Virus record (IMG/VR): IMGVR_UViG_3300023296_000874
Span: 1 to 31,593 of that record
Reading direction: 5' to 3' (one strand)
DNA from: a virus
Length of the DNA stretch: 31,593 nucleotides
The notes beneath the pieces were generated by a model, which saw only the letters and a list, made by a program, of their open reading frames with translations, had not been told where the DNA came from and searched no databases. The translations under genes were made by a program, and so were the position numbers. Positions 6,394 through 20,720 of the stretch are shown here, in pieces (the stretch's first letter is position 1; the number at the start of each line of letters is the position of its first letter).

Positions 6394-6984
6394 TCAGTAG
6401 GCCAAAATCCGCTTGAGATGATCTCGTCTTTTGCCCCAGCGAGTACCGAACTCTTCGATACTGTCCGGTGCGGGGTCTGTCATCAGCTCGAGCCAGTGGT
6501 CCTCAACCCCCGCCCCGAAGTTTCGGATGTGTCCGTCCTCGATGAGTTGTCGTGCGAACAGTAGGGTCCGAAGGCTGTGCCACACCTTCTTCCGGGCCTT
6601 GTCTGGGTCCGCTTGTATCAGCTTGACACCCTTGGCGAAGTCAGCATCGCTTGACGCCACGACACGGGCCTTGAGCTTGTCGCCGTTCAGGGTCCATGCC
6701 CACGCCCGCGTACATACCATCCGGTGCGACTCGGGTGCCCAGAGCGCCTCCAGTGCGTAGAGACTCTGCTCGTTGAGGGCAAGCTGGTATTCCAACGGGT
6801 TGTAGAGCGTGACGTTGTAGTCCCTGCCGAACAGAAGGTTCTTGATGACCGGCTCTTCGACCACCGCCACGAAGTCCGTGTCACTCCCTTGCGTGGAGCA
6901 GCCGTACACCTGTGAGCCAACCCGCGCCGCAAAGACGATGGTCTTCCCAAAGAGGATCCGCTGTAGGTCAGTCGTCGTCAACAT
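6394..6984 (-). CDS. Nucleotidyltransferase-fold protein
   Basis: This encodes 196 residues. Near the N-terminus, VGSQVYG (22-28) followed by GSDTDF (33-38) is the GS...D-x-D core of the DNA polymerase beta superfamily, most like the phage and bacterial predicted nucleotidyltransferases linked to RNA repair. The C-terminal part is helical (KKVWHSLRTLLFARQLIEDG). The substrate could be tRNA ends, another RNA or a small molecule. Its last 17 bases are coded within the overlap at 6968 and its own 3' end is followed 41 bases later by the phosphatase start. Confidence 0.75.
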   Translation of the reverse strand: MLTTTDLQRILFGKTIVFAARVGSQVYGCSTQGSDTDFVAVVEEPVIKNLLFGRDYNVTLYNPLEYQLALNEQSLYALEALWAPESHRMVCTRAWAWTLNGDKLKARVVASSDADFAKGVKLIQADPDKARKKVWHSLRTLLFARQLIEDGHIRNFGAGVEDHWLELMTDPAPDSIEEFGTRWGKRRDHLKRILAY

Positions 6985-11711: not shown

Positions 11712-13259
11712 CTACGGAAGTCTGAGAATGTTGATGCCGTCGTCCGTGTGGCGCACCACCTCGTACCCGTGGCTGATGTAGTAGTCCTTCACCTTGCACA
11801 GGTCATGGGCAGCCACCGTGAGTCGCCTTGCAACAAAGGTCTCGGCTACGTGCTTGCCCACACCCATCCCACGGTAACCAGGTAGCAGGTACGCGGAGTT
11901 CCAGTCCTCATACTGAGCCACGAGCCCGGCGATTCTGCCCCATGCGATCACGGGCGTCAGCTTGCTCTCGGCAAGGATCTCTTCCTGTCCTACGTCACGG
12001 ATGTGCTGAGCCCATTCGAGCTTCACGTCTTCCCATTCCGAGCGCATGAACGCTACGTCACCATCACCGAACCCGATGAGCGTGCCGTGGTTCACAAGGT
12101 CCAGGGTCCAGCTCTGGGAGAGGCGGTACGGTCCGAGGCAGTGCAAGATCTCCTGCGCCTCTTGCACCGTTCCGCACGGGTACGGGTAGACGGTCTTGGT
12201 GTGCGGTACGACGTAGCCACCGTGGAAGTGCAGCAGCGCCTTGAGTCCCTTCATGTCGTGATAAAGGCGCGCGTGTACCGAGCAGTCGATGGAAGGCTTG
12301 ACAGTGCCATGAGCGCGCGTCAAACGATCAGAGATGTCAGCACTCGCAAAGATGAACTCGTCCGGCTTCACGTCACCCTTCTGCACACCGCGCGGGGTAG
12401 CCCAGAAGTGGGTGGGGATGGAGCTGATGAGCTGGGTCACGTTGCCGTCAGAGCTGTCAAGGAGGTTGGCCTCTTGAGCGAAGGCGAGCAGGGCTTGTGC
12501 CTCCTCCAAGGAGTCCACGAAGGTGTCCTTGGGGTCAACACCAGGGTAGAGCACGTCTTCGTCGTACAGCTCGGTCCTGCTCCACTGCACAGCTTGACGG
12601 TTGATGCAGAGGTCGACAATGGCTGCGGAAACATCCGTCTTGGAGCCTTCAAGCGGTATGGCCCCTCCCTCTGGGGTCACCGCGTAGCACGGATGCAGTC
12701 CCTTGTTCTCGGGGAGGCTGAGCTTGCTCCAATCGTTCGCGATGGTCAGGTTGATGCGACAGCTCTTCACCTGCGCCAGTGCCACGCTGATCAACTCATC
12801 GTCAGTCACGTCGCTCAGGAGCTTCCACCCTACGATGAAGGGACGGTTGGGCACCCACTCCCTCAGGTTGGCGAGGATCTTGGGCGTGCGCTTGAGGACG
12901 AGCGTCTGCTCGTCGTTCTTGGAGCGGATCTTCCCTTCCACGGGGACGGGAGCGTAGTCGCTGATGGCAGCGGGCATCAGGATGAAGTCGAAGTCACCCG
13001 TGTTTGCCAGGTCCTTCACTTGGTCGTAGAGCTCTTGGTACGTGCGGAACGTGTAGATGCCGCTCACGCCTCCGACGGTGTCCCCGTACATGCTCAAGGT
13101 GCGTTCAGCGGCGAGAAGCGTCACGTTGACACCCCTCGCCGCGAACAGATTGGCGACGGTACACCCGAACCGACCCTTGGAGCGGTTGGTGATGACGCGG
13201 ACGTCGTCGATGTCGACTTCCGTGCCTCCGGTCACGACAAGGGCTCTCAGTTCAGGCAT
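11712..13259 (-). CDS. CoaB-like ligase / class II aldolase-like / GNAT three-domain fusion
   Basis: This encodes 515 residues. Residues 1-220 match the DNA/pantothenate flavoprotein (CoaB) family: GGTEVDIDDVRVITNRSKG, then PAAISDYAP, KIRSK and IANDWSKLS, the regions that bind CTP and the acyl chain in phosphopantothenoylcysteine synthetase. Residues 255-400 match class II aldolase/adducin folds: DGNVT, ATPRGVQKGD, PSID, then zinc ligands HFH (344-346) and NHG (His391). The usual catalytic Glu of PSSE is Asp325. Residues 430-515 look like a GNAT acetyltransferase with the acetyl-CoA loop GYRGMGVGKH. No CoaC decarboxylase domain is present. The substrate is unknown. The ATG follows GGAGAGA, 14 bases after the 13274 gene. 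Confidence 0.82.
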   Translation of the reverse strand: MPELRALVVTGGTEVDIDDVRVITNRSKGRFGCTVANLFAARGVNVTLLAAERTLSMYGDTVGGVSGIYTFRTYQELYDQVKDLANTGDFDFILMPAAISDYAPVPVEGKIRSKNDEQTLVLKRTPKILANLREWVPNRPFIVGWKLLSDVTDDELISVALAQVKSCRINLTIANDWSKLSLPENKGLHPCYAVTPEGGAIPLEGSKTDVSAAIVDLCINRQAVQWSRTELYDEDVLYPGVDPKDTFVDSLEEAQALLAFAQEANLLDSSDGNVTQLISSIPTHFWATPRGVQKGDVKPDEFIFASADISDRLTRAHGTVKPSIDCSVHARLYHDMKGLKALLHFHGGYVVPHTKTVYPYPCGTVQEAQEILHCLGPYRLSQSWTLDLVNHGTLIGFGDGDVAFMRSEWEDVKLEWAQHIRDVGQEEILAESKLTPVIAWGRIAGLVAQYEDWNSAYLLPGYRGMGVGKHVAETFVARRLTVAAHDLCKVKDYYISHGYEVVRHTDDGINILRLP

Positions 13260-13273
13260 GTCTCTCTCCGTGG

Positions 13274-13951
13274 CTACTCGCCGTCCATGATCATGTCGAG
13301 CCGTGCGTGTCCGGGCTCAGGCCAGTAGGCATCGACGCTCTCCCAGTCCGGGTAGTTCGTGTCGAGGTACTCCTTGCACTGCCCCTTCATCCAGTCGTTC
13401 GTGGTCTTCTCGCGCTGGTACGCGGGGTCGCCGTAGGTGACGGTCAGGGGGATGTCGGGAGGGCACTCTGCACGGTTCACCGTGAGCAGCACCGTGTCAC
13501 CGTCCACCACCTTGCAGGTGAGGTCGTCGCTGTAGTCGTAGTCGATGCTGTAGCGACGGCAGAGGTTTCCACGGGCGTAGCGGTCGTAGGACGCTGCCTT
13601 GTAGAAGGTCGTGATGCGGGTGCGCCCGTCCTCGTCGACGATCTTGCCTGCTCGAGAGTCTTCTCCGCGCTCACGCTTCCACCCCGGAGGGAGCTGCGCA
13701 TCCTGGAAGATGGGGTCGCTGCCGGGGGACACCTTGATGCCCCACTTGGCGAGGGTCTTGAGTGCGTCGGCCCCACCGATGTCCACCGGGAGTTGAGTGG
13801 AGTTGAGGAACTCTCGGTTGCCTCGTGCTTCCTGAGCGAGGATGGCGTCCGAGCCCCTCCCGCCGATGAAGGTGTTGAGCATGGTCTCGCGGGCGAGCCG
13901 GGCTACTTCTTCCTTGGAGGTGGTGTCACCTACCTTGCGGTGTCCGGCCAT
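13274..13951 (-). CDS. Conserved hypothetical protein (PPGW...FYKAA...YDR) ending in RLDMIMDGE
   Basis: The ATG at 13951 overlaps the TGA of the small membrane protein gene and gives 225 residues. The middle contains LPPGWKRE, then GRTRITTFYKAASYDRYAR, a pattern I recall in conserved hypothetical proteins of phages and bacteria (PPGW...G..R...FYKAAFYDR). Its function is unknown. The C-terminus reads GHARLDMIMDGE, a further version of the shared C-terminal motif. It is soluble. The stop lies 14 bases before the fusion-protein gene start, suggesting one operon. Confidence 0.78.
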   Translation of the reverse strand: MAGHRKVGDTTSKEEVARLARETMLNTFIGGRGSDAILAQEARGNREFLNSTQLPVDIGGADALKTLAKWGIKVSPGSDPIFQDAQLPPGWKRERGEDSRAGKIVDEDGRTRITTFYKAASYDRYARGNLCRRYSIDYDYSDDLTCKVVDGDTVLLTVNRAECPPDIPLTVTYGDPAYQREKTTNDWMKGQCKEYLDTNYPDWESVDAYWPEPGHARLDMIMDGE

Positions 13952-14190
13952 CAGATCAGCCCCGCGTTGTTGAGCAACTCGTAGACGAGCCACAAGAAGC
14001 CGATGAAGCCTACGAGGCCTCCAAACGAGCCAACGCCAGCGATCTTGCCGTGACGCTTGAAGGTGGTGTCGAAGCTGGAAAAGGCGTCACCGCCCTTGGA
14101 GAAGCTCGAGGTGACGTTGCTGAAGCCAGCGATGCCTGCCCCGATGGCGATGAAGGCTCCAACAGCCATCAAGATAAAGGGTCCGATCAT
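13951..14190 (-). CDS. Small two-helix membrane protein
   Basis: This encodes 79 residues from an ATG with GGAGAG upstream. Two hydrophobic segments (about 3-24, PFILMAVGAFIAIGAGIAGF, and about 52-73, GVGSFGGLVGFIGFLWLVYE) flank a Ser/Lys/Asp-rich loop. Size and topology fit a class II holin, but also many small phage membrane proteins, and it lies 11 kb from the endolysin. Its stop overlaps the start of the 13274 gene. Confidence 0.75.
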   Translation of the reverse strand: MIGPFILMAVGAFIAIGAGIAGFSNVTSSFSKGGDAFSSFDTTFKRHGKIAGVGSFGGLVGFIGFLWLVYELLNNAGLI

Positions 14191-20186: not shown

Positions 20187-20720
20187 TCAAGAAATGGGTA
20201 CCAACAGCGTACTCATGGAGTTGCCCTGGAACGAGATCTTGCTCTCCACCTTGGCAACGTCGGCCAGGGCCTCGATCACCTTCATCATCTGCGCTTGACC
20301 CACGTCGCGTCTACGCATCTCACGACGGCGGAAGCGTACTTCGACCTTCACCCGACTGCCCTCGCTGATGAACTGTCGGATCTTGCGGACCTTGGTGTCA
20401 AAGTCGTGGGTGTCCGTAGTGGGACGGAACTTGATCTCACGCACGGAGTTGGCAGCAGAGTTCCTCCGCTGCTCCTTCTTGGCCTTCTGGCTCGCGTACC
20501 GCATCTTCCCGAAGTCGACAATCTTGCAGACGGGCGGGGTGGCATCGGGGGACACTTCAACAAGGTCAAGCCCTGCGTCCTGCGCGCGGTTGTACGCGTC
20601 ACGGGTCATGAAGATGCCAAGTTGGCGTCCCGTCTCGTCAATGAGACGTACGCGGGTTGCTCGGATTTCTCGATTGCGGCGAGGCCCATTATCGGGACTC
20701 TTATCACGGCGAGGGGGCAC
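20187..20720 (-). CDS. infC: Translation initiation factor IF3
   Basis: This encodes 177 residues covering both IF3 domains. The N-terminal domain (13-82) has REIRATRVRLIDETG, GLDLVEVSPDATPPVCKIVDFGK; the C-terminal domain (90-177) has VREIKFRPTTDTHDFDTK, GSRVKVEVRFRRREM and a closing GNSMSTLLVP. IF3 binds the 30S subunit, checks the start codon and prevents early 50S joining. A complete IF3 in a phage would let the virus favour its own mRNAs. The start is a GTG at 20720 with AGGAG eight bases upstream; bacterial infC itself uses an unusual AUU start for feedback control, so the non-ATG start is noteworthy. Confidence 0.93.
   Translation of the reverse strand: MPPRRDKSPDNGPRRNREIRATRVRLIDETGRQLGIFMTRDAYNRAQDAGLDLVEVSPDATPPVCKIVDFGKMRYASQKAKKEQRRNSAANSVREIKFRPTTDTHDFDTKVRKIRQFISEGSRVKVEVRFRRREMRRRDVGQAQMMKVIEALADVAKVESKISFQGNSMSTLLVPIS

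Follow-up and report, generated by a model that had tools for sequence, protein, structure and literature searches.

What does a giant phage make with a protein in which a CoaB-like ligase, a class II aldolase-like domain and an acetyltransferase-like domain follow one another in one chain? This question is raised by a gene of the window analyzed here, a stretch of 31,593 nucleotides that is the first 31.6 kb of the 257,533-base virus record IMGVR_UViG_3300023296_000874. The initial annotation had placed the gene at 11712-13259 without giving a strand. The coordinates hold and the strand is the minus one, with the ATG at 13259 and the stop codon at 11712-11714. The product, P0001, has 515 amino acids and the frame contains 0 internal stops. 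The GC content by codon position is uniform across the three segments of the gene and like that of other window genes, and the gene located upstream (13274-13993) ends 14 bases before the ATG. The single open frame, the uniform codon-position GC and the sequence GGAGAGAG in front of the ATG indicate that this is a real single gene. Together with the domain matches described below, this frame also bears out the proposal that the three domains stand in this order in one chain. An internal start yielding the third domain as a separate product is possible. A scan for promoters and terminators around the gene found none, and P0001 had no match among the models of known anti-phage defence systems of PADLOC. 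The features are collected in Table 1. Elsewhere in the window we found a complete gene for translation initiation factor IF-3 (20187-20720, minus strand) and a gene for an RlaP-like nucleotidyltransferase, of an RNA repair family, that scored slightly under the cut-off (6394-6984, minus strand).

Table 1. Location of the gene of P0001, of its predicted domains and of their principal residues in the window.
Feature	Position	Strand	Basis
P0001, CoaB / class II aldolase / GNAT fusion, 515 aa	11712..13259	-	single intact ORF
Shine-Dalgarno-like GGAGAGAG, immediately upstream of the P0001 ATG	13262..13269	-	read from the sequence
Domain 1, residues 1-225, CoaB (phosphopantothenate-cysteine ligase)-like	12585..13259	-	Pfam DFP, PDB CoaB matches
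R21-VIT-N25, equivalent of CoaB R207/N211 (M. smegmatis numbering)	13185..13199	-	alignment
D101 (cation Asp, D281 equivalent) to K110-I-R-S-K-N loop (K-X-K-K equivalent)	12915..12959	-	alignment
Domain 2, about residues 250-425, class II aldolase / AraD-like	11985..12512	-	Pfam Aldolase_II, family profile
Arg290, at Ser/Thr of the TPSG/TPTG anion-binding motif	12390..12392	-	alignment; FucA role from PMC11841055
Asp325, at FucA Glu73 / native AraD Asp	12285..12287	-	alignment
H344-F-H346, metal ligands 1 and 2	12222..12230	-	alignment
H391, metal ligand 3, NHG motif	12087..12089	-	alignment
Domain 3, residues 426-515, probable short GNAT	11715..11984	-	Pfam Acetyltransf_7 E=0.0048, below cut-off
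GYRGMGVGKH, residues 461-470, acetyl-CoA pyrophosphate loop motif	11850..11879	-	sequence inspection

The first domain is matched by Pfam DFP over residues 4-179 with E=2.3e-30 (106 bits, cut-off 22). The nearest NCBIfam models were those of monofunctional CoaB, the best match, and of the CoaBC-type CoaB, and the equivalog cut-offs of both were not reached by P0001 (103 versus 265 and 90.6 versus 219.7 bits, respectively). In CoaB, the second half-reaction depends critically on R207, the active site also contains N211 and the cation-binding D281, and CTP is contacted by a K-X-K-K loop (PMC7794376). We found that R21, N25, D101 and K110 of P0001 align with R207, N211, D281 and the first lysine of this loop, which in P0001 reads K-I-R-S-K and not K-X-K-K. 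The initial annotation had described a CoaB-like domain with its key residues, and both parts of that description stand. At the level of sequence, these data establish domain 1 as a CoaB-like ligase with a predicted intact set of active-site residues for CTP, cation and amine. During the searches a further CoaB match, in psiM100, was discarded; it lies in the host flank of a prophage record and is not a phage gene.

Domain 2 was recognized by Pfam Aldolase_II (residues 259-355, E=3.7e-10, 40.4 bits, cut-off 22.2). By sequence, it is matched best by AraD and other classical members of this group, and AraD is also the best solved relative of the family profile (E=1.1e-7). The curated cut-offs for AraD were not reached, with 29.5 versus 251 bits for the best AraD-type model and 12.7 versus 389 bits for TIGR00760. 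The zinc aldolase-like domain with HFH and NHG ligands that had been proposed is confirmed by these matches and by H344, H346 and H391. Different is the case of Asp325, which had been read as a departure from the usual Glu. AraD itself has this Asp natively, in the motif KPSSD, so it is a feature of the AraD branch and not an oddity. Judging from the alignment, the real oddity of the domain is Arg290, found where Ser or Thr is normal. In FucA the phosphate is contacted by Asn29, Thr43, Gly44, Ser71 and Ser72 (PMC11841055). P0001 keeps Asn273 and Ser323 in the alignment and has Arg290 at the position of FucA Thr43 and of the AraD Ser. The equivalent of this Arg, as well as the His triad, was present in all of the 31 proteins that we compared. 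From an arginine at a phosphate-contact position of FucA, common to the whole set, we infer that domain 2 takes an anionic substrate, either a phosphate or a carboxylate.

The same fold also houses Fe(II)-dependent enzymes, and domain 2 could be an oxygenase or decarboxylase comparable to pyruvic oxime dioxygenase (POD) or NovR instead of a zinc lyase. Actually, the model of the class B relatives described below matches the structures of POD, TqaM and NovR with E values between 1e-6 and 1e-4, the family profile gives a weak match to NovR (E=0.0026), and POD provides a precedent, having lost Glu73 and the phosphate ligands and retained the three His alone (PMC11841055). We consider this reading unlikely, since at the sequence level classical members, AraD among them, give the best matches, and Asn273, Ser323 and the AraD-type Asp are kept by P0001 and not by POD. 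A second class II aldolase, stand-alone and canonical, is found in the same phage at G000:C1:194621-195250 (L030:5222-5851, minus strand), with a Pfam E value of 1e-30 and an intact TPSG motif.

The third domain is a probable GNAT and the weakest of the three assignments. Within the full P0001 it scored E=0.06, and the C-terminal piece alone reached E=0.0048 with Acetyltransf_7 (17.7 bits, cut-off 27). The best solved match was a putative phosphinothricin acetyltransferase with E=0.088. The R/QxxGxG/A acetyl-CoA loop of GNATs is present as R463-G-M-G466-V-G468. Hence, of the GNAT domain with an acetyl-CoA loop in the initial annotation, the loop is there and the domain, being below the cut-off, is no more than probable. 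The AlphaFold2 model of whole P0001, from single-sequence input, had a pLDDT of 31, so the GNAT assignment is not confirmed by fold. No relatives of domain 3 were detected by tblastn across 50,697 phage records.

The complete three-domain version was found in this phage only, and its first two domains recur elsewhere. By tblastn, a 485-kb phage was found to carry a CoaB-aldolase fusion without a GNAT, and scans of viral contigs yielded 13 distinct CoaB-aldolase fusions, here called class A. P0001 is co-linear with one of them (L058) across residues 4-400 (E=7e-13). All 13 class A loci have a SAM methyltransferase as partner, located with a profile built from the methyltransferases downstream of class A genes; it is encoded by the adjoining downstream gene in 12 and fused in one (L057/L101). 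With this profile no methyltransferase of the class A type was found in the window or in the rest of the record. A search for the order of the fusion in other phages had been suggested, and its outcome is that the CoaB-aldolase core recurs, in these 13 cases with a methyltransferase and never with a GNAT. No second GNAT-bearing version was found, viral contigs scanned for exact peptides of P0001 gave no match, and in the trees P0001 forms a long isolated branch, which leaves its grouping with class A or with class B unsure. It fits the CoaB-aldolase group by its co-linear CoaB-like and aldolase-like domains and by the invariant Arg. Altogether, the comparison demonstrates a predicted CoaB-aldolase core that is recurrent across giant phages, paired with a methyltransferase in class A and with the putative GNAT in P0001.

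The active sites of this core are not equally conserved. In 13 of 13 class A proteins, Lys replaces the CoaB Arg and Asn replaces the cation Asp, so these proteins may have a different ligase chemistry or none. P0001 is canonical at both positions and is thus the member most likely to keep ordinary CoaB-type chemistry in domain 1. At the Asp position of the aldolase domain, P0001 has Asp, class A has Asn and the divergent member L059 has Gly. These losses in class A, together with the variation (D, N, G) at the aldolase Glu/Asp position across the family, would suit a protein whose first two domains have degenerated into binding modules, such as a regulator that binds CTP or a metabolite, or an inhibitor of host enzymes. 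We regard this as very improbable. The metal ligands are invariant (31/31) and P0001 has kept all the listed catalytic residues of CoaB, and both facts favour catalysis over binding.

A second group of relatives, class B, comprises 16 sequences, including some from Lak phages of the gut, with a similar aldolase domain (motifs KPSVDTPVQ, HGH, YPCGD and NHG) after a shorter N-terminal domain. The latter, of roughly 150 residues, matched no family, and its profile-profile comparison with CoaB was not significant. In the class B model (pLDDT 86.5) the C-terminal part has the class II aldolase fold. The order of strands and helices in the model fits a CoaB minus its loop, and the fold search listed aldolase matches only. 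A reduced CoaB is therefore a suggestion for this N-terminal domain, taken from the model. A search of a viral structure library gave no significant match, and the class B genes have no conserved neighbours among phages. Two class B members (L034 and L037) come from Saprospiraceae bins, where they adjoin a glycosyltransferase and one or more methyltransferases, and possibly represent a cellular branch.

The presence of a CoaB homologue brings to mind CoA biosynthesis, in which case domain 1 would be an extra CoaB easing a bottleneck of the host, with domains 2 and 3 incidental or acting on CoA intermediates. CoaC is usually fused to CoaB or encoded in the same genome, although this is not obligatory. 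The initial annotation saw no CoaC partner, and we found none (PF02441) anywhere in the 257,533-base record. Specifically, the CoaC flavoprotein family was detected in 0 of the 27 records searched that have a member of the CoaB-aldolase family (19, including that of the window, plus 8 further class A records), against 4 of the 4 records searched as a contrast, in which CoaB stands alone (L003, L051, L054 and L056). With many of the records being fragments, little weight can be given to any single absence, but the contrast is still clear. Nor is the rule perfect, given that no CoaC was found in G010, which carries a class B gene and also a stand-alone CoaB. In favour of CoA supply are the key CoaB residues, every one of them intact in P0001 and not so in class A, the occurrence of CoaB together with CoaC in some giant phages, and the fact that acetyl-CoA is the substrate of GNATs. 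The missing CoaC (0/27), the score of 103 bits against an equivalog cut-off of 265, and the conserved aldolase core, which this explanation does not account for, make it improbable in our opinion. As a separate observation, CoaC is located near CoaB in six giant phages (L003, L045, L048, L051, L054 and L056), several of them with an extra gene within or beside the pair, and these phages apparently encode CoA biosynthesis of their own.

The neighbourhoods of the class A genes point in another direction. In 5 records, genes for NadE and/or NAPRT are found within about 6 kb of the class A gene, and in L059 the divergent CoaB-aldolase gene is overlapped at its start by an ADP-ribosylglycohydrolase gene (L059:2803-3702, plus strand). 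In the phage of the window there are likewise genes for PRPP synthetase and for NAMPT-like and NrtR-like proteins. A role in pyridine-nucleotide or ADP-ribose metabolism could be envisaged from this, such as the repair of the NAD pool or the removal of a nucleotide generated by a defence system. However, giant phages often carry NAD genes, those of the window's phage are about 40-50 kb away, and the probability of finding the neighbourhood by chance, 0.001 when records are taken as independent, rises to 0.14 with one record per clade. For this last reason the proximity is only a lead, and the role itself appears doubtful. Other gene groups of this phage were noted along the way. An NAD-salvage-like module (G000:C1:50987-67336, L023) contains PRPP synthetase, a weak NAMPT/NAPRT-family protein of 523 aa, and a NUDIX and NrtR-like regulator. 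The region G000:C1:68117-72719 (L023/L024), which resembles a second cluster for modification or biosynthesis, codes for two similar proteins, one matching LPG_synthase_C, together with a SAM methyltransferase, a sugar nucleotidyltransferase-like protein and a PLP-dependent enzyme. An aspartate/ornithine carbamoyltransferase gene is located at G000:C1:179070-180005 (L029:9471-10406, plus strand).

Our preferred reading, with a probability of about 0.45, is that P0001 is a biosynthetic enzyme in which a core of ligase and metal enzyme is combined with an exchangeable tailoring enzyme, the product being small and acidic or phosphorylated. From sequence comparison, systems of this type would probably produce a small metabolite, and not CoA itself. 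Domain 1 would activate a carboxylate with CTP as an acyl-cytidylate and pass it to an amine, forming an amide. Domain 2 would bind the same substrate or a linked one, acidic or phosphorylated, through Arg290 and the metal, for retro-aldol cleavage, epimerisation or elimination. As the last step, the GNAT of P0001 would transfer an acyl group, or the methyltransferase of class A a methyl group. We infer these steps, and also a common substrate for domains 1 and 2, of which the co-occurrence of the domains is no proof. Among the possibilities raised by the initial annotation, the synthesis of a small molecule seems the best reading, and nothing speaks specifically for the modification of either nucleobases or proteins. 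There is a small chance that the system represents a new CTP-ligase/aldolase-fold pathway, with methyltransferase and acetyltransferase as swappable parts, for a novel metabolite, either nucleotide-linked or resembling a cofactor, and perhaps connected with pyridine-nucleotide metabolism or with evasion of defence.

In the literature, covered mostly short of subscription papers, we found no description of a CoaB-aldolase fusion family, in line with the earlier remark that this architecture was not known from characterised phage enzymes. Taken singly, the domains are of known kinds, and it is the assembled family that is apparently undescribed. An undescribed enzyme system is indicated by the combination of domains, its recurrence over diverse giant phages, the invariant Arg specific to this family and the strict pairing of class A with a methyltransferase. 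Finding the reaction of this family would show what giant phages synthesise during infection. For annotation, the caution is that CoA biosynthesis does not follow from a CoaB match in a giant phage without CoaC.

With regard to known systems, domain 1 is similar over its whole length to the monofunctional CoaB of the streptococcal type (nearest solved chain PDB 2gk4), with which it shares the R/N/D/K active-site residues and the GG..DxVRxITN motif. It differs from CoaB by its score, far under the equivalog cut-off, and by an Arg as the third position of K-X-K-K, and P0001 differs in having no CoaC and in being joined to two further domains. The stand-alone proteins of the four contrast phages are CoaB homologues too, but they come with CoaC and lack the aldolase domain. 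Domain 2 and AraD (L-ribulose-5-phosphate 4-epimerase, PDB 1k0w and 1jdi) have the same His triad and the KPSxD motif with its native Asp, whereas domain 2 has Arg for the Ser of the KPSG motif, falls far under the araD cut-off and shows no clear match across the C-terminal half of AraD. Compared with the class II aldolases and dehydratases FucA, MtnB and DrdA, the fold and the His triad are alike and the changes are Glu73 to Asp, Thr43 to Arg and Ser72 to Ile. The Fe(II) oxygenases of this fold (POD, NovR and TqaM) are alike in fold and in the three-His metal site, and P0001 differs from POD in having kept an Asp, an Asn and a Ser, all three of them lost in POD.
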